The notes under the pieces are model-generated. The model was not told where the DNA came from and did not search any database. It worked only from the letters and a program-made list of their open reading frames with translations. The position numbers and the translations under genes were made by a program. DNA of 64,000 nucleotides, taken from positions 1 through 64,000 of the forward strand of contig JANYCZ010000036.1 in the NCBI GenBank assembly GCA_025360015.1, in the 5' to 3' direction. The stretch is from Verrucomicrobiota bacterium (lineage in GTDB: Bacteria; Verrucomicrobiota; Verrucomicrobiia; Verrucomicrobiales; Verrucomicrobiaceae). Below are positions 40,526 to 47,423 of the stretch, one piece after another (the first letter of the stretch is position 1; the number at the start of each line of letters is the position of its first letter).

Positions 40526-42130
40526 TCACTTCAGCAACTGATCCCAGCTTAGTTTAAAGCGAGCCAGGTATTTCTTGATCCGGTCAGCGTCGTTCATCTT
40601 TGAGCGCTTGGCGCGCGAGACCGTGAAGAGCTTGCGTCCGGCATCCGAGAGCGTTTTGCTTTCGCGGCAGACCTGTAGCACGAAGTCGAGTTGAGCCAGA
40701 TCGAAGGGATCAAACGCGGCTCTTTGCGCCTCGGTGAGCACGGTGCTTTCCGGGTGTGGTTTTTGAGCACCGGCATCCCGCCAGCCTTCGCGCAATCGCG
40801 CAGCCTCGGTCTCCACGCAGGCCACGGTGATCCTGCCTCTGGGGGCCAGCGTGGCCATGCGTGTCACCGCTGCATTCAGATCGCGAAAATTGGCACTCCA
40901 TTTCGCCTCGGGACTGCGGGAAAATTTGAGGAAGGCCTCACGGGCTTCTTTGTTCATGCGCACCTGGCGCCGATGCGACTTCGCAAAGCGTTCCAGCTCG
41001 AAATCGAGATTGGCGGCGATATCTTCACGGCGCTCGGCGAGGCTTGGCAGCGTGAAGGTCCATAGATTGATGCGGGCAAGCAGGTCATCGCGAAATTTGC
41101 CAGCAGCAACCTGCATTCGCAGATCGCGATTGGTCCCCGCGATGAGTTCGAAATCGCTCTGCACCGCTTTGTCGCCACCCAGAGGCAGGAAGGTCTTATC
41201 CTCAAGCGCCCGCAGCAGCATCGCCTGCTCGTCGAGGCCGAGTTCGCCGATTTCATCCAGGAAGATGAGGCCCTTGTCTGCCTCCTTGAGCAGCCCAGGA
41301 CGGTCTGATTGTGCGCCGGTGAAGGAACCGCGTTTGTGACCGAACAGCGCCGACAATGCGTGGTCGCCACGCAGCGTGGCGCAGTTCACTTCCACAAATC
41401 TGCCGCTGAGACCGGCTCGAGAACGCCGCAGGTCATAGATGCGGCTGGCGAGCATGGATTTACCCGCACCCGTCGGACCCATGATGAGGATGGGCGCTTT
41501 GGAGTTCACGGCCACGAGTTCAATCTGCTCGATGAGCTTGTTGAAGCCCTTGCTCTTCGTGGCGATGCCGCTCTTCAGAAAGTCCAGCGTGCGCTCCTGC
41601 TCCTGTGCAAAGCGGGTCGAGAGCCGGTCATACTTCGAGAGATCGAGATCGATGATCTCATAGCGTCCTGAGGGCTTCGCATCACGCCCTCCTTCACGTG
41701 ACGGCGATGTTTGCAGAAGCCGTGCCGGAATGAAGTTCGCCTCATTGAGCAGGAACCAGCAGATCTGCGCCACATGCGTTCCCGTGGTAAGATGGATCAA
41801 ATAGTCCGCCTTCTCCGGATCAAAGGTATAACCCCGAACGAAGTCGTAAAGCCGCTCATACACCTCCTGCAAATCCCACGGATCCTTCAATGCAAACTCA
41901 TGCACCACCACCGTCGTTTCTGGGGACACCTTCTCGATGTCCGCCTTCACCTGCCGCGCCAATTCGGCAAACTTAGGCTCCGCCAGCATCTCCAGCCGTG
42001 AGATCAATAGATCCTCCTGCTGGCACATCGCCACCGTGGGCCGCCATTTTGACCATCTTTCGGGTCCTGAGGCACGGTCCAAATTCGAACCGAGAAATCC
42101 AAAAGTGACGATGGGCTTAGTTGACGGCAT
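40526..42130 (-). CDS. rtcR: RtcR, sigma-54 activator of the RNA-repair operon
   Basis: 534 residues. The N-terminal domain (about 1-175: VTFGFLGSNLDRASGPERWSKWRPT, LIHLTTGTHVAQICWFLLNEANFIPARLLQ) is the CARF-like RtcR regulatory domain. In Salmonella it is activated by tRNA fragments carrying 2',3'-cyclic phosphate ends. The AAA+ module has Walker A GPTGAGKSML, the sigma-54 loop as GSFTGA (canonical GAFTGA, one change) and Walker B GLIFLDEIGEL. The C-terminus is a short DNA-binding region. It is divergent from the Ro60 operon, whose promoter is sigma-54 type. The ATG at 42130 is chosen for the family N-terminus. Confidence 0.94.
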   Translation of the reverse strand: MPSTKPIVTFGFLGSNLDRASGPERWSKWRPTVAMCQQEDLLISRLEMLAEPKFAELARQVKADIEKVSPETTVVVHEFALKDPWDLQEVYERLYDFVRGYTFDPEKADYLIHLTTGTHVAQICWFLLNEANFIPARLLQTSPSREGGRDAKPSGRYEIIDLDLSKYDRLSTRFAQEQERTLDFLKSGIATKSKGFNKLIEQIELVAVNSKAPILIMGPTGAGKSMLASRIYDLRRSRAGLSGRFVEVNCATLRGDHALSALFGHKRGSFTGAQSDRPGLLKEADKGLIFLDEIGELGLDEQAMLLRALEDKTFLPLGGDKAVQSDFELIAGTNRDLRMQVAAGKFRDDLLARINLWTFTLPSLAERREDIAANLDFELERFAKSHRRQVRMNKEAREAFLKFSRSPEAKWSANFRDLNAAVTRMATLAPRGRITVACVETEAARLREGWRDAGAQKPHPESTVLTEAQRAAFDPFDLAQLDFVLQVCRESKTLSDAGRKLFTVSRAKRSKMNDADRIKKYLARFKLSWDQLLK

Positions 42131-42256
42131 CAAAGATAAAAAGCTATCTAAACGGATAAACAAATAAAATTAATTGGATGGGTGAATTGAGAGCTGAAAG
42201 TACTGAAAAACTTTCTTCGCCTGATTTTACAAGGGTTCCAGTCTCATCGGACCCTG

Positions 42257-42284
42257 CGTGCCAAGTATTGGCACGCCGCTAGCA
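42257..42284 (+). promoter_or_regulatory. sigma-54 promoter of the Ro60-Y RNA-rtcBA operon
   Basis: TGGCACGCCGCTAGCA at 42269-42284 matches the -24/-12 consensus TGGCACG-N4-TTGC(A/T) at every fixed base except one (TAGC for TTGC). The -24 element is the right arm of a perfect palindrome CGTGCCAA-GTA-TTGGCACG (42257-42275). It lies 34 bp upstream of the Ro60 ATG, with rtcR divergent on the other side, exactly as expected for an RtcR target. Confidence 0.8.
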
Positions 42285-42317
42285 CTAGGTATTGGCTCAA
42301 CCAACCCAATCAACACC

Positions 42318-43886
42318 ATGGCTAGCAAAACACTCTTTTCGACCCTCCGCGGCGCTCTGGCTCTGAAGGCTGACAGCTTCAATGAAGCCGGTGGCCCGGC
42401 CTACCAGCTCATGCCCCGTCATGCGCTGGCGCAGTTTGCGGCCACGGGCTGCCTGAACCGCACCTTTTACGCCACGGCGCAAGATCAGCTTCAGCAGGTG
42501 CTGAAGCTGTGTGAGAAAGTTCCGACGGATTTCATCGCCCGCACGGCGCTTTACTGCCGCCAGAAAGGTTTCATGAAGGATGTGCCGGCTCTGCTCTGCG
42601 CCGTCCTGGCCGCCCGTGATGCCGAACGTCTGGAACTGATCTTTGATCGCGTGATTGATGACGCCAAGATGCTGCGGAACTTCGTGCAGATGCTGCGCTC
42701 CGGCGTGACGGGTCGTAAATCGCTCGGTTCCCTGCCAAAGCGCCTCGTTCGCCGCTGGTTTGAGACTCGTTCGGACGAGGCCATCTTCCGCGCTGATGTG
42801 GGTCAGTCGCCTTCGCTGGCGGACATCGTGAAAATGGTGCACCCACGTCCGGCTAACAAGACCCGCGAGGCGCTGTATGGCTACCTCATTGGTCGCAAGC
42901 ATGATGCCGCAGCCCTGCCGAAAATCGTACGCGAGTTCGAGGCCTGGAAATCCGACCCTGCGGGTGATCCGCCGGACGTGCCGTTCCAAATGCTCACCGC
43001 ACTGCCTTTGACGGCGGAGCAGTGGCAGGCCATCGCTCGTCGTGCCCCGTGGCAGATGACGCGCATGAACCTGAACACCTTCGCCCGTCATGGTGTGTTC
43101 ACCATCAAGGAGATCACCCGTCTTGTGGCCAGCCGCCTGCGCCACGAGGAGCAGGTGCGCCGCTCCAAGGTGTTCCCTTATCAGCTCATGGCCGCCTATC
43201 ACAACGTCGGCGCGGAAGTCCCGCACGACGTGAAGGAAGCGCTGCAGGATGCGATGGAGATCTCGGTCTCCAATGTGCCGGTGGTGGCTGGAAAGGTGAT
43301 TGTGGCTCCAGACGTGTCTGGATCGATGCACTCCGCTCTCACGGGTATCCGCAAGGGTGCCACGAGCAAGGTGCGCTGCATCGATATCGCCGCCTTGGTG
43401 GCCGCCGCCTTCCTGCGTCAGAACCGTGATGCCGAAGTGCTGCCGTTCGAGAGCAACGTTGTTCGTGTGTCGTTGAATCCCCGTGATTCCGTGATGACGA
43501 ACGCGCAGAAGCTCGCGTCTCTGCCTTGCGGCGGGACAAACTGCAGCGCCGTGCTCATCGATCTCAATGCCCGCAAGGTGCAGGCGGATCTGGTGATCTA
43601 CGTCTCCGACAACGAGTCTTGGATCGACACACCGTATCACGGCCACTTCGGTGGTTCGGCGACTCGCACGATGAGCGAGTGGATGATCTTCAAGCAGCGG
43701 AATCCCAAAGCCCGTCTCGTGTGTCTGGACATCCAGCCATACACCTCAACTCAGGCCCAGGAGCGTGAGGACATCCTCAACATCGGTGGTTTCTCCGATG
43801 CAGTGTTCAACGTGATCGCCGCCTTTGCCCGTGGCGAACTCAGCAGCGCCCACTGGGTCGGCGAGATCGAGAAAACACCTCTTTAA
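42318..43886 (+). CDS. rsr: Ro60-like TROVE/vWA RNA-binding protein (Rsr)
   Basis: 522 residues. The N-terminal TROVE domain of helical repeats (about 15-340, PAYQLMPRHALAQFAATGCLNRTFY...) forms the RNA-binding ring. The C-terminal vWA domain has an intact MIDAS motif DVSGSM and a later SDNESW. Ro60 proteins bind Y RNAs and misfolded or damaged RNAs, and in bacteria work with exoribonucleases. The ATG at 42318 follows the sigma-54 promoter. Four Y-RNA-like genes lie immediately downstream, the expected ligands. Confidence 0.95.
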   Translation: MASKTLFSTLRGALALKADSFNEAGGPAYQLMPRHALAQFAATGCLNRTFYATAQDQLQQVLKLCEKVPTDFIARTALYCRQKGFMKDVPALLCAVLAARDAERLELIFDRVIDDAKMLRNFVQMLRSGVTGRKSLGSLPKRLVRRWFETRSDEAIFRADVGQSPSLADIVKMVHPRPANKTREALYGYLIGRKHDAAALPKIVREFEAWKSDPAGDPPDVPFQMLTALPLTAEQWQAIARRAPWQMTRMNLNTFARHGVFTIKEITRLVASRLRHEEQVRRSKVFPYQLMAAYHNVGAEVPHDVKEALQDAMEISVSNVPVVAGKVIVAPDVSGSMHSALTGIRKGATSKVRCIDIAALVAAAFLRQNRDAEVLPFESNVVRVSLNPRDSVMTNAQKLASLPCGGTNCSAVLIDLNARKVQADLVIYVSDNESWIDTPYHGHFGGSATRTMSEWMIFKQRNPKARLVCLDIQPYTSTQAQEREDILNIGGFSDAVFNVIAAFARGELSSAHWVGEIEKTPL

Positions 43887-43899
43887 TAACTCAAACTTT

Positions 43900-43971
43900 G
43901 GAGCCTGGTGAATGCTGGAGCGGACTACATTTCCAACTGTCGCGTCTCTCCGATTCTTGTCACCAGGCTCC
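43900..43971 (+). ncRNA. Y RNA-like unit A (short, no tRNA module)
   Basis: 72 nt. The outer stem GGAGCCTGGTGA/TCACCAGGCTCC is a perfect 12 bp. Then comes the shared block AATGCTGGAGCGGACTACAT on the 5' side and TTCTTG before the closing strand. The second helix pairs GGAG (43917-43920) with CTCC (43948-43951). The centre (TTCCAACTGTCGCG) has no T-arm or D-arm, so this is a minimal Ro-binding Y stem. It begins 14 nt after the Ro60 stop codon and lies in the same transcript. Confidence 0.7.
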
Positions 43972-43987
43972 ATCCCAACTCTTTCCA

Positions 43988-44122
43988 ATGATGGCGAATG
44001 CCCCGAGGAACTACATTGAACCAGTCGGCCGCAGGTTCGAGCCCTGCCTGTCATGCGCAAGCATGGCAGTAGCTCAGCGGTAGAGCAATTGGACCCGTTT
44101 CTCACCTCCTTGTCGCCGTCAT
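43988..44122 (+). ncRNA. Y RNA-like unit B with circularly permuted tRNA module
   Basis: About 135 nt. Outer Ro-type stem ATGATGGCGA/TCGCCGTCAT, conserved blocks AATGCCCCGAGGAACTACAT and CCTTGTCGCC, second helix GAGG (44005-44008)/CCTC (44105-44108). The centre is tRNA-like but permuted: T-arm GCAGG-TTCGAGC-CCTGC (44031-44047), then a 9-bp acceptor-like helix CTGTCATGC-GCAA-GCATGGCAG (44048-44069) capped by a GCAA tetraloop, then D-arm TAGCTCAGCGGTAGAGCA (44070-44087). A T6 tract follows (44124-44129) and may terminate some transcripts. This matches the YrlA class of bacterial Y RNAs. Confidence 0.8.
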
Positions 44123-44148
44123 CTTTTTTCAATCTTAACCACCACCTT

Positions 44149-44239
44149 TGGCGAATGCCGGAGCGGACTACATCGGTAATCAGCGGGTTCGACCCCCGCC
44201 CCGCAGCAATGCGGAGAAGTCTCTCCATCCTTGTCGCCA
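44149..44239 (+). ncRNA. Y RNA-like unit C with reduced tRNA module
   Basis: About 91 nt. Outer stem TGGCGA/TCGCCA, conserved 5' block AATGCCGGAGCGGACTACAT and 3' block CCTTGTCGCC, second helix GGAG (44160-44163)/CTCC (44223-44226). A T-arm GCGGG-TTCGACC-CCCGC and a short CCGC/GCGG helix are seen, but no D-arm. It looks like a partly reduced version of units B and D. Confidence 0.7.
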
Positions 44240-44269
44240 TCTCTTTTCATAAAACCAATCACCTCAAAT

Positions 44270-44412
44270 GGTGACGAATGCCGATGGAACTACATGGCTA
44301 TTACCCCTCCTGTCGTGGGTTCGAATCCCACCGGTCCCACCTTGCCAATTTCCCGGGACCGTAGCTCAGCCTGGTAGAGCAGGGAACGTTTCATCAATCC
44401 CTTGTCGTCACC
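44270..44412 (+). ncRNA. Y RNA-like unit D with circularly permuted tRNA module
   Basis: 143 nt. Outer stem GGTGACGA/TCGTCACC (perfect 8 bp), shared blocks AATGCCGATGGAACTACAT and CCCTTGTCG, second helix GATG (44283-44286)/CATC (44392-44395). Permuted tRNA module: T-arm GTGGG-TTCGAAT-CCCAC (44315-44331), acceptor strand CGGTCCC (44332-44338) with a tRNA-like ACC after it, partner strand GGGACCG (44355-44361), then D-arm TAGCTCAGCCTGGTAGAGCA (44362-44381). It ends 18 nt before the rtcB start codon, so it could also influence rtcB translation. Confidence 0.8.
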
Positions 44413-44430
44413 GCCAATTTCCAAACAACC

Positions 44431-45918
44431 ATGACATCTCCATTCCACATCACCGCCGAAGCCGAAGCCATCCTTCCTGCCCGCAACAACGCGGGTAAAC
44501 CGATCACTGTGATCGGCACGGAAGCGATTCGTTCCGGCTTTGACCAAACCTGCATTGAGCAGGCTCTAAACTCGCGCTCCGCTCCAGGCGTGACCGATCT
44601 CGTGCTCAATCCTGACGCGCATGCCGGTTACGGTGCCCCGGTGGGTTGCGTGATGGTTTCGCCAACGCACATCTATCCAGGCCCTGTGGGCGTGGACATC
44701 AAGTGCTCCATGTCGCTGCTGCAGATGAACATCCCTGCCGATGCGATCGTGGACAAAGGGGTGCGCCGCCGTCTCATTGACGCCATCTTGGAGCGTACGC
44801 CTACCGGCGCGGGCCGTGGTCAGCGCGAGGCGAAAAAATCGCGCCGTGTCTCCGCTGATCTCGGTGTGCAGGTGTGCACCGAAGGCGCCCGCAAGAGCGT
44901 ATGCGAAGCACTCGGCATCCCGCCGGAGTGGGCGTTGCGCTGCGAGGACAGCGCGCACCTCGGTCATGATGGAAATGTCTCCACGTTGGATGAGCGCCTG
45001 GACAAGATGCGCTCGTTCAACGGCTTCTCCGGATTTGAAAACAAGATGATGCAGCTCGGCTCTTACGGTGGTGGAAATCACTTCGGTGAGTGCGAGGTGG
45101 TGCAGCTTGACGATGATCCTGCCATGCGTCAGACCGCCGAGGTCTTCGGCCTGCAGGACAACCACGTCGCCTTCCTCAGCCACTGCGGATCGCGCGGGTT
45201 TGGGAACATTCTGGCGCAGCGTCAGTTCAAAGCGCTGGAAGGTTTCTTCCGCACCTGGGGCCTCGCATTTCCTGCCGAAGACAAACAGCTTGTCTATGCC
45301 CCGCTCGGAACCCCCGAGGCGGACGCGTATCTGGATGACATGGCTCTCGGGGCGAACTTCGCCACGGTGAACCACATGCTCATCAATGCGCTCGTGCTGG
45401 AGGCTTTCCAGGAAGTGCTGCCAGGGGCGAAAGGTCAGCTCGTGTACTTCATCAGCCACAACATCGCCCGTCAGGAGGTCGTGGACAACCAGCTCGCCTG
45501 GGTTCACCGCAAAGGCGCAACTCGCGCCTTCCCAGGTGGACACCACGCGCTCAAGGACACCCCTTTTGCCAACACCGGCCACCCAATCCTGCTGCCGGGA
45601 AATCCGCGCGATGGTTCCGTGATCATGGTGGCAAAACCCGATGCCGTGAAAACCTGCTACAGTGTGAACCACGGTGCCGGCCGCTGCATGGGCCGCAAAG
45701 CCGCTGCTCGTACACTCGATCAAAAGAGCGTCGATGCCGACTTCGAAACCCACGACATCCTCTACAACGCCCGCCAGTACCCGATCGACGAAGCCCCCAA
45801 CGCTTACAAGGATTTCAAAGAAGTCCTCCGCAGCGTCGAAGCCGCCGGTCTGGCCCAGCAGGTGTGCAAACTCAAAGCCCGCTTCGTCATCAAGGACGCG
45901 GCGGAGGCGGATGATTGA
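44431..45918 (+). CDS. rtcB: RtcB-type RNA ligase
   Basis: 495 residues. GTP- and Mn2+-dependent ligase joining 2',3'-cyclic phosphate (or 3'-phosphate) to 5'-OH RNA ends. Seen: NPDAHAGYGAPVGCV, the metal Cys92 in GVDIKCSM, GGGNHFGE, HCGSRGFG, and the guanylylated His at about 414 in NHGAGRCMGRKAA. Several motifs differ slightly from Escherichia coli RtcB (GVDIKCS for GVDIGCG). It sits behind the Y-RNA array in the RtcR-controlled operon. Confidence 0.96.
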   Translation: MTSPFHITAEAEAILPARNNAGKPITVIGTEAIRSGFDQTCIEQALNSRSAPGVTDLVLNPDAHAGYGAPVGCVMVSPTHIYPGPVGVDIKCSMSLLQMNIPADAIVDKGVRRRLIDAILERTPTGAGRGQREAKKSRRVSADLGVQVCTEGARKSVCEALGIPPEWALRCEDSAHLGHDGNVSTLDERLDKMRSFNGFSGFENKMMQLGSYGGGNHFGECEVVQLDDDPAMRQTAEVFGLQDNHVAFLSHCGSRGFGNILAQRQFKALEGFFRTWGLAFPAEDKQLVYAPLGTPEADAYLDDMALGANFATVNHMLINALVLEAFQEVLPGAKGQLVYFISHNIARQEVVDNQLAWVHRKGATRAFPGGHHALKDTPFANTGHPILLPGNPRDGSVIMVAKPDAVKTCYSVNHGAGRCMGRKAAARTLDQKSVDADFETHDILYNARQYPIDEAPNAYKDFKEVLRSVEAAGLAQQVCKLKARFVIKDAAEADD

Positions 45919-45945
45919 GAAAATGAGCGTTAACCCAAATAACTG

Positions 45946-46335
45946 GTGAACAGTCAAAAAACAGAGCCCATTTCAACATGGGTAGAAGTAGAGGAGGATC
46001 ACGATTCTGGAGGGATGATGCTGTCTGGTGATCGGACCGGCCTGATGGCCCTTCGCGATGCCATTGATATTGCGATTGCTGAGGGAGAAGCTCCAATTGC
46101 TGCCGAGTGTGTAGAATTCAGTGGAGTGCGTCGTGTCGATGCACTCCGCAAACCCGAACCTCAATCTTTCCACTCGAAATTGGCGGGAGCGGGTTGTTTG
46201 ATTTTCATTGTCATCGGTTTCTTGATTTTTTTACTCGGGATCTGGCAGTTGAAATCTCTCATTCTGCGCTTCGGACGCGGTGCAGCCGAGGTCACAGCCC
46301 CGTCATGCTCATGGACGCTTGCCAAACAAACATGA
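45946..46335 (+). CDS. small membrane protein between rtcB and rtcA
   Basis: 129 residues, GTG start. The soluble N-terminal part (about 1-80: STWVEVEEDHDSGGMMLSGDRTGLMALRDAIDIAI) is followed by one hydrophobic helix (about 85-105, GCLIFIVIGFLIFLLGIW). No family is recognised. It ends in an ATGA overlap with rtcA, so it is part of the repair operon. A stress-related or membrane-tethering role is only a guess. Confidence 0.65.
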   Translation: MNSQKTEPISTWVEVEEDHDSGGMMLSGDRTGLMALRDAIDIAIAEGEAPIAAECVEFSGVRRVDALRKPEPQSFHSKLAGAGCLIFIVIGFLIFLLGIWQLKSLILRFGRGAAEVTAPSCSWTLAKQT

Positions 46336-47423
46336 AATCCACCCCCATCCTCCAAATCTCCGGCGAATCCGGCGGCGGTCAGTTGCTGCGCTCTTCACTC
46401 TCTCTGTCGCTCGTCACCGGACGTCCATTTCGCATGACAAACATTCGTGGCAAGCGGCCCAAGCCAGGCCTGATGCGTCAGCATCTCACCTGCGTGAAAG
46501 CCGCAGCTGAAGTCTGTGACGCGAGCGTCGATGGCGCGGAGCTGGGCTCGGTGGAGCTTGTGTTCTGTCCCGGGAAAATCGTGGGAGGCGACTATTCCTT
46601 TGCCATCGGGTCGGGCGGCAGCACCACCCTTGTCTTGCAAACCCTGCTTCCCGCGCTGTTGCATGCAGAGGTGTCGAGCACAGTGCGCATCGAAGGCGGG
46701 ACGCACAACCCAATGGCACCGCCCTTTGAATTCATCGAGCAATGCTACCTGCCGGTGGTTCAGCGCATGGGTGTGGATGCCTCGGTAAAGCTGGAGCGAC
46801 ATGGCTTCATGCAGGCGGGTGGCGGTGCCATCACGGCGGCCATTTCCCCCATCAAGAAGTGGGAGAAACTCATTCTCACGGATCGCGGAGATACGGTGGA
46901 AACGTTTGGTCGTGTTCTTCATGCTCATCTGCCAGGTGACATCGCGAAGCGAGAGATCGCAACGGCTTCGAACCTCCTTGGTTGGGCTGACAGTCACATT
47001 GAACTGCGCTACGCAAATGACAGCACAGGTCCCGGGAATGTCCTCCTGCTCGGCGCGCGCTTTGCGAATGTTTGCGAAATCAGCAGCGGGATCGCGCAGC
47101 AGGGCAAGTCTTCTGAGGCCGTGGCGACGGGCGCAGCAAAGGGACTGCGCGCATATCTCGCGTCGTCCGCACCCGTGGGCGCTCACCTGGCCGATCAACT
47201 GCTGCTGCCCATGGCTCTGGCAGGCGGCGGTGTGTTTCACACCCTGTCGATCACCGATCACACTCGGACGAACATAGCGCTGATCGAGCAGTTCCTGCCC
47301 GTGAAATTCATAGTCGAAGAACTGGAGCCAGGCGTGAAGCAAATTCGCTGCGGTTTGATCCCGCCGCCCTCCATCACTCCGCCCAGGCTTCACGCAGCAG
47401 GCGCAGGTAGTTGCCGTGCATGA
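46332..47423 (+). CDS. rtcA: RNA 3'-terminal phosphate cyclase RtcA
   Basis: 363 residues. It converts 3'-phosphate ends into 2',3'-cyclic phosphate with ATP, preparing ends for RtcB. Family motifs: ISGESGGGQLLRSSLSLSLVTGRPF, RGKRPKPGLMRQHL, HLADQLLLPMALAGGG and the adenylylated His at about 310 in TDHTRTNIALIEQF. The C-terminal 15-20 residues (after IRCGLI) are an unusual low-complexity tail that overlaps the convergent dipeptidase gene by 50 bp. Confidence 0.95.
   Translation: MKSTPILQISGESGGGQLLRSSLSLSLVTGRPFRMTNIRGKRPKPGLMRQHLTCVKAAAEVCDASVDGAELGSVELVFCPGKIVGGDYSFAIGSGGSTTLVLQTLLPALLHAEVSSTVRIEGGTHNPMAPPFEFIEQCYLPVVQRMGVDASVKLERHGFMQAGGGAITAAISPIKKWEKLILTDRGDTVETFGRVLHAHLPGDIAKREIATASNLLGWADSHIELRYANDSTGPGNVLLLGARFANVCEISSGIAQQGKSSEAVATGAAKGLRAYLASSAPVGAHLADQLLLPMALAGGGVFHTLSITDHTRTNIALIEQFLPVKFIVEELEPGVKQIRCGLIPPPSITPPRLHAAGAGSCRA

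Follow-up and report, generated by a model that had tools for sequence, protein, structure and literature searches.

Comparison with described systems

In Salmonella, the activator RtcR binds 5’ tRNA fragments carrying a cyclic phosphate and drives the rsr-yrlBA-rtcBA operon (PMC7790460), and this activation is RecA-dependent (PMC9879122); the roles of bacterial Ro60 and Y RNAs within the repair operon are stated in PMC7790460 as not addressed by that study. The Ro60-Y-PNPase machine of Deinococcus is the subject of two reviews (PMC8394870, PMC4726728). A related locus is described here from a 64,000-nucleotide stretch of a Verrucomicrobiota genome (assembly GCA_025360015.1, contig JANYCZ010000036.1, positions 1 to 64,000), referred to throughout as the window. 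It comprises a divergent rtcR gene, a putative sigma-54 promoter, the Ro60 gene rsr, four predicted Y RNAs (Y1–Y4), rtcB, a small open reading frame (ORF) and rtcA, and may be a variant of the known rsr-yrl-rtcBA operon; a class of Y RNAs opened in the D loop and two alternative gene settings, both seen among relatives, are possibly new parts. Features of the locus are as follows.

40526..42130, minus strand: rtcR, sigma-54 activator with an N-terminal RtcR (CARF-type) domain (Pfam RtcR 262.7 bits; NCBIfam equivalog NF038308 781.3 bits, cut-off 650)
42269..42284, plus strand: putative sigma-54 (-24/-12) promoter element TGGCACG-CCGC-TAGCA with GG-N10-GC spacing, one mismatch to the pattern
42318..43886, plus strand: rsr, Ro60 / TROVE-vWA protein, 522 residues (Pfam, PDB profile, AlphaFold2 model)
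43898..43974, plus strand: Y1, predicted minimal Y RNA with a Ro60-type stem and short loop, without a tRNA-like module (core motif, fold z, conservation)
43986..44124, plus strand: Y2, predicted YrlA-type RNA, T arm - acceptor - D arm, with the Ro60 stem replacing the anticodon loop (Rfam YrlA below cut-off, alignment A5)
44143..44245, plus strand: Y3, predicted Y RNA with a T arm and 5-bp stub, without a D arm (Rfam YrlA below cut-off, fold)
44266..44416, plus strand: Y4, predicted full YrlA-type RNA with a 7-bp acceptor stem (Rfam YrlA over cut-off, alignment A5)
44431..45918, plus strand: rtcB, RNA ligase, 495 residues (Pfam RtcB 336.6 bits; motifs)
45946..46335, plus strand: small protein of 129 residues with one hydrophobic stretch (ORF; hydrophobicity by eye)
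46332..47423, plus strand: rtcA, RNA 3’-phosphate cyclase (Pfam RTC and RTC_insert; TIGR03399 359.6 bits, cut-off 250.05)

The locus shares with the Salmonella operon a divergent rtcR, apparent sigma-54 control, rsr in first place, Y RNAs ahead of rtcB, and rtcA thereafter (PMC7790460, PMC9879122). It differs in having four Y RNAs of three kinds rather than two, and a small protein encoded after rtcB and ahead of rtcA; its Ro60 also falls under the NCBIfam Rsr equivalog cut-off, in a comparison made with the window's protein. With respect to the Rfam family YrlA (RF02553), Y4 exceeds the cut-off and the arms of Y2 are those of the family, in matching succession, whereas Y1 and Y3 are without most of the module, and the D-loop-opened kind in relatives reaches the cut-off of no Rfam family. 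The Ro60 fold and the Y stem are common to Deinococcus radiodurans Rsr and its Y RNAs, although the two proteins are only 21% identical where the fold matches 2nvo, and Rsr there is tied to PNPase rather than RtcR in the Deinococcus literature consulted. Finally, dense tRNA sets beside Ro60 in rtcR-less, mostly acidobacterial relatives recall the tRNA arrays of phages and mycobacteria, unlike the window locus, which has no tRNA array. No link of those phage or mycobacterial arrays with Ro60 was present among the matches listed in the literature search. Likewise, four-member bacterial Y arrays, D-loop-permuted Y RNAs and Ro60 beside tRNA arrays were absent from the titles and abstract starts listed, which is weak evidence of absence, and the terms ‘permuted tRNA’ and ‘Y RNA’ together gave no literature match.

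Four different Y RNAs between rsr and rtcB

The motif GAATGC-N4-9-[AG]CTACAT occurs on the two strands of the window at 43910, 43996, 44153 and 44276 only, all four within the rsr-rtcB spacer, compared with a mean of 0.01 and a maximum of 1 in 100 dinucleotide shuffles. Each occurrence belongs to a conserved Ro60-type stem, GAATG...ACTAC...TTGTC with a paired base, present in Y1–Y4, which are thus classed as bacterial Y RNAs with predicted Ro60 binding. Fold z-scores against shuffled sequences are -5.3 for Y1, -3.0 for Y2, -1.7 for Y3 and -2.2 for Y4. The covariance-model check proposed for this spacer by an earlier reading made from the sequence alone (hereafter the sequence-only reading) recovers Y4 with the Rfam YrlA model, at 75.2 bits against a cut-off of 69. 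Aligned to YrlA, both Y2 and Y4 present a T arm, an acceptor stem and a D arm in succession, a permutation of the tRNA order that puts the Ro60 stem where the anticodon loop would be, and the minimum-energy fold of Y2 departs from this alignment. In alignment A5, which contains 26 YrlA-type RNAs from several phyla, 23 of the 32 consensus pairs carry double compensatory changes, the 7-bp acceptor stem included, and pairing is mostly preserved through changes in stem columns 4-12/154-162 and 20-26/136-142.

Comparisons between genomes argue for long separate histories. First, six identically arranged loci have 344 invariant columns out of 465 in the Y RNAs, including 63 of 72 in Y1 and 83 of 103 in Y3, versus 20 of 82 in the spacers. 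Second, across nine loci with four members each (the window, L002, L004–L009 and L068; L003, with five members, was excluded), RNAs at the same position in different genomes are 86–91% identical, versus 42–72% between positions within a genome. By these identities Y1–Y4 are old, separate paralogues, four different genes rather than copies.

Y RNA arrays in related loci

Close relatives of the Ro60 protein were sought in the genomes of 84,980 species, which gave 253 loci, and the best 80 by Ro60 identity to the window, together with the window itself, constitute a set of 81 loci whose members are not independent. Y RNAs in the relatives were counted with a rough regular expression, and two candidates lying inside rtcB or rtcA (L010, L053) were discarded. 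No Y RNA was found in nine loci, one in 15, two in 18, three in 14, four in 19, five in five and six in one, so that a Y core is present in 72 of the 81; among these nine, L013 and L025 have fewer than 220 bases of sequence after rsr, and one locus without a match (L017) yields five Y RNAs with the covariance model R1. At least two Y RNAs are present in 57 of the 81 loci and at least four in 25, and the four-member array is therefore ordinary for its clade. The sequence-only reading had taken four as an expanded version of the known arrangement; that this is unusual finds no support, since loci of this Ro60 clade commonly have more than one Y RNA. An abstract by Chen of 2014 reportedly gave at least one Y RNA with a tRNA-like domain per species, so several per species would already have been known.

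Within the genus, 12 of 48 genomes have a Ro60 of the window kind (E <= 1e-30), and within a phylum sample 12 of 387. The 12 loci of the genus are the window, L096–L098 and L106–L113; the last eight have the same Y sequences as L002–L008 and L068, and are in effect identical loci. In ten of the 12 the members run minimal - YrlA - T-arm - YrlA, extra members allowed (kinds assigned by eye). The exceptions are L096, with only three YrlA-type members by regular expression, and L098, with other modules where the T-arm member is expected. One genus genome also holds a second, distant Ro60 (L114).

The best tRNA match within the same genome is tRNA-Lys for the Y2 position in seven of 11 loci and tRNA-Pro for the Y4 position in nine of 11 (one tied). 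The idea that each Y RNA copies one tRNA species was rejected, as YrlA-type scores of 31–45 lie within the range between tRNA species (up to 42 for most).

Protein genes of the operon

The gene calls of the sequence-only reading for rtcR, Ro60, rtcB and rtcA are borne out by Pfam or NCBIfam matches over cut-off. In Ro60, the Pfam domains vWA_Ro60 and TROVE both exceed their cut-offs, and a PDB sequence profile matches Deinococcus Rsr (2nvo, 5.3e-36) as well as vertebrate Ro60. The AlphaFold2 model has a pLDDT of 82.8, and all 13 Foldseek matches at E <= 0.001 are Ro60/Rsr/TROVE chains (E 5.1e-18 to 8.2e-13; TM 0.60–0.71, normalised to query length). The window's own genome has one TROVE match. 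Ro60 genes 87–94% identical to it are found in verrucomicrobial records, such as Verrucomicrobiaceae, Prosthecobacter and Brevifollis, consistent with the origin guessed in the sequence-only reading.

The RtcR product contains a Walker A motif, GPTGAGKS, and a GSFTGA loop, and its ATG start at 42130 is likelier than a TTG at 42163 because the NF038308 match starts at residue 16 of the longer ORF. The motifs DIKCSM, GGGNHFGE, SHCGSRG, SHNIAR and NHGAGR, which presumably have metal and guanylate roles, are present in the RtcB product; no NCBIfam RtcB model is over its cut-off, the Pfam RtcB model being over.

Two settings of the Ro60 cassette

The 81 loci fall into two groups according to the presence of a divergent rtcR within 1.6 kb (rtcR-positive, 58 loci) or its absence with more than 1.7 kb of upstream sequence (rtcR-negative, 21 loci); two loci are assigned to neither group. 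In the 330 bases before rsr, a pattern similar to the sigma-54 element occurs in 33 of 58 rtcR-positive versus 3 of 21 rtcR-negative loci, and in 0.2% of shuffled upstream regions used as a control. It lies 31–94 bases before rsr in many relatives. The three rtcR-negative loci with the pattern (L058, L078, L079) have no tRNA genes, and L058 has rtcR after rsr. Where enough downstream sequence is available, rtcB follows in 43 of 45 rtcR-positive and 6 of 15 rtcR-negative loci; the corresponding counts for rtcA are 27 of 38 and 1 of 15. The sigma-54 promoter named in the sequence-only reading thus gains from the relatives, and RtcR probably controls the window operon, judging from the divergent gene and the promoter element.

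tRNA genes have the opposite distribution. Among the 58 rtcR-positive loci there are never more than three, and 50 have none, whereas 17 of the 21 rtcR-negative loci contain 6–33 (L014, L022, L024, L026, L029, L030, L036, L038, L046, L047, L049, L051, L064, L065, L066, L069, L074); of the remaining four, L041 has two and L058, L078 and L079 none. In mapped rtcR-negative loci the tRNA genes lie mostly upstream of rsr, with Y RNAs interspersed in some. Five genomes with tRNA-rich loci have 52–64 tRNA matches overall, many on other contigs (two genomes were scored for the first 150 candidates only), which suggests that the tRNA genes beside Ro60 are an added set. Lineage and setting are largely confounded, with 16 of the 17 tRNA-rich loci acidobacterial by record and one from Polyangia; counter to a pure lineage effect, three loci that are acidobacterial by record (L033, L054, L055) have rtcR and no tRNA genes.

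A second permuted tRNA-like design in relatives

Some relatives encode Y RNAs with a second module order: D-arm 3’ half, hairpin, T arm, acceptor, D-arm 5’ half. Such a module would correspond to a cloverleaf that is cut open within its D loop and retains a shortened anticodon arm. Eight D-loop-opened cloverleaves have fold z-scores of -2.3 to -3.9. By regular expression alone, 7 of 262 Y RNAs are candidates versus a shuffled mean of 0.70 and maximum of 4 (60 rounds), and the class was accepted only after covariance modelling and covariation; one member, from L019, was missed by the expression and added by eye. A covariance model (A4) built from six of these RNAs was searched against 73 of the 81 loci; the other eight (L004–L008, L011, L025, L068) were covered by the regular expression for the Y RNAs found there. 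The model scores its own six at 95.8–139 bits, by construction, and nine more at 76.5–97.2 bits, followed by a gap down to 59.9. A further RNA in L070 scores 57.9 bits, within the ordinary Y RNA range, and is counted because its arm order and compensated D stem (GAAC/GTTC) fit; the candidates L043:7808 (59.9 bits) and L052:7881 (56.3 bits) were inspected and not counted.

Sixteen of the 73 loci thus have a single member of the class each; by record title these loci come from five Verrucomicrobia, five Acidobacteria, three Planctomycetes and three Alphaproteobacteria. The alignment of the 16 RNAs exhibits double changes in 22 of 26 consensus pairs, two of them in the D stem (GAGT/ACTC, GAAC/GTTC). 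The anticodon stem appears in the six-sequence consensus and not in the 16-sequence one, where arm lengths differ and misalign, and it is represented there by single-sequence folds only. The folds are imperfect: the minimum-energy D stem pairs elsewhere in L029, L048, L017, L042 and L073, and the acceptor of L014 is mostly open. The loop of the anticodon arm has 3–6 bases in 15 of the 16 and seven in L019, a tendency rather than a rule because minimum-energy folds can pair loop bases. The whole arm is 13–16 bases in nine of these RNAs (by eye), in which five pairs and seven bases would not fit.

Two plasmid members, in L234 (74 bits) and more weakly in L233 (60.6 bits), bring the loci concerned to 18, in ten of which YrlA matches other Y RNAs; neither the 16 RNAs nor the two plasmid ones reach the cut-off of any Rfam family. 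The window itself lacks the class, with Y2, Y3 and Y4 at 33–39 bits and Y1 unmatched by the covariance model. The named strains that carry it, among them Rhabdaerophilum sp. SD176 (L048), Labrys sp. KNU-23 (L070) and Rhizobium etli CIAT 652 (L234), make the class testable.

Other modules were noted by eye. D arms presumably resembling initiator tRNA occur at L045:7910, L057:7898 and in L102 and L103 (309 and 468 bases after rsr), and ones presumably resembling Leu or Ser tRNA at L034:7751, L079:7694 and in L099 and L103 (493 and 1584 bases after rsr). A module of the type GGTGT...ACACCGGTGATCCTAAGCTGTTC is common to the acidobacterial loci L014:5379, L036:5851, L046:5447 and L047:5827, somewhat divergent in the last two, and is not known to resemble any tRNA arm.

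Proposed role in the response to tRNA damage

The best explanation of the whole locus is likely to be a tRNA-damage-response operon. The window contains the genes, the promoter element and four conserved, structured RNAs of old paralogy; the ligand, induction, ribonucleoprotein formation and PNPase link would follow by analogy with the Salmonella and Deinococcus work. A ribonuclease would cut tRNAs, and 5’ fragments ending in a 2’,3’-cyclic phosphate would bind the RtcR sensor domain, whereupon RtcR would open the sigma-54 promoter at 42269. The resulting single transcript would supply Ro60, the four Y RNAs, RtcB, the small membrane protein and RtcA, and RtcA and RtcB would reseal the cut RNA. 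The conserved stem of each Y RNA may dock on the Ro60 ring and supply a different head: none for Y1, a possible gate; a T-arm stub for Y3; and for Y2 and Y4 a permuted tRNA body that has no anticodon loop and would therefore not be cleavable there. Such tRNA-like heads would probably occupy enzymes that bind tRNA, either PNPase or the nuclease making the cuts, or else recruit Ro60 to cleaved tRNAs so that these are degraded or repaired.

Several results weigh against this reading. The sigma-54 element of the window is not significant alone (16 matches at two or fewer mismatches in 64 kb versus 17.9 expected) and has an A at a consensus T position; 25 of the 58 rtcR-positive loci are without the pattern used, and six of the 58 are without a Y RNA by regular expression. 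Y2 and Y3 score below the YrlA cut-off (49.9 and 29.8 bits), Y1 matches no Rfam family, and the Y3 fold only weakly beats its shuffles. Ro60 reaches 79.5 bits with the Rsr equivalog NF041674, for which the cut-off is 900; it is therefore a distant subfamily, and transfer of function from Deinococcus Rsr is correspondingly distant. One role per Y RNA, proposed because of their old, separate conservation, is conjecture, as nothing separates the jobs of the four RNAs.

Extended to the relatives, the data fit the idea of inhibition, with two tRNA-mimic designs, neither having a normal anticodon loop, in cassettes that are coupled to tRNA repair in some loci and to groups of tRNA genes in others. 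Tentatively, and as something short of an even bet, Ro60-Y cassettes may form a modular tRNA-damage system in which mimics permuted at the anticodon loop or the D loop, with the anticodon loop replaced or shortened, would bind tRNA-cutting enzymes uncut, and in which the cassette would be connected either to RtcR and RtcBA for repair or to up to 33 spare tRNA genes for replacement.

The alternative that survives best is an RNA decay machine, in which the Y RNAs would just tether and gate a Ro60-PNPase complex degrading structured RNA, as in Deinococcus, with the tRNA-like head a handle for PNPase and RtcBA unrelated and co-induced. The RYPER model for Deinococcus, as reviewed (PMC8394870, PMC4726728), and the fold match of Ro60 to 2nvo lend it some weight, and it is a possibility to be held with real doubt; taken alone, it leaves unexplained the four old paralogues, the compensated D arm and 7-bp acceptor stem, and the alternation with tRNA gene sets. 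An anti-phage function, with the operon countering phage- or toxin-driven tRNA cleavage and spreading as an accessory island, seems unlikely: the patchy occurrence within the genus and phylum and the relatives on plasmids and viral-classed contigs are in keeping with it, although patchiness suits any stress island and this explanation overlaps the tRNA-damage response itself. That the array is mere tandem-duplication drift, with one Y RNA sufficient, is improbable despite Y RNA numbers varying from zero to six between loci by regular expression, given the same-position identities and the order preserved in most genus genomes.

With its four Y RNAs, different by nature and serving a single Ro60, the locus offers a built-in dissection of the modules. 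The pairing of repair genes or tRNA gene sets with mimics that do without a normal anticodon loop sharpens a vague ‘RNA quality control’ role into a definite hypothesis on tRNA cleavage.

Mobile relatives, accessory genes and other observations

A Ro60 relative is carried by 71 plasmid records. On pOB3b1 of Methylosinus trichosporium OB3b (L233), an annotated rtcR adjoins the Ro60 relative and there are three model matches; pA of Rhizobium etli CIAT 652 (L234) has four, with a divergent regulator annotated as putative only. Ro60 relatives are also encoded on 74 contigs classed as viral (L159–L232), some with several model Y RNA matches, such as L195, L171 and L188. A lack of Y RNAs in phages was considered and dropped: the regular expression finds them on 13 of the 74 contigs, but covariance model R1 gives 69 matches there at E <= 0.001, so the former count is too low and no contrast is claimed. 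Weak R1 matches were not counted as Y RNAs because R1 gives true tRNA genes up to 31 bits.

General rRNA mimicry by Y RNAs was also rejected, the best sense score of 202 Y modules against E. coli rRNA being 14, with up to 15 for modules shuffled three times and 13 for antisense. A single Y RNA, at L066:9441-9497, has a short loop identical at 13 of 13 bases to the 23S sarcin-ricin loop, which is not significant over all modules; another in L066, at 5703, matches a 23S stretch at 15 of 16 bases.

The small membrane protein of the sequence-only reading is an ORF with one hydrophobic stretch, by eye, no Pfam match and only 19.8 bits with NCBIfam SecE (cut-off 97). It is variable: comparable ORFs lie between rtcB and rtcA in L002, L004, L008 and L068 (by eye), and the space in L005 is too small for it. 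Extra ORFs, some perhaps not genes, occur at differing points of the operon in L002, L003, L006, L007, L009, L010 and L011; in L010 and L011 one that is slipin-like by eye separates rtcR from rsr. The operon has the look of an accessory-gene hot spot. Elsewhere in the window's own genome there is a second tRNA-and-RtcB locus, C11:106332-111772 (L158). Its RtcB differs from that of the window, and immediately before the gene lies an ORF judged by eye to be nucleotidyltransferase-like, the pair being preceded by a tRNA cluster with 12 matches over the Rfam cut-off, six of them called by ARAGORN and several with odd T loops.

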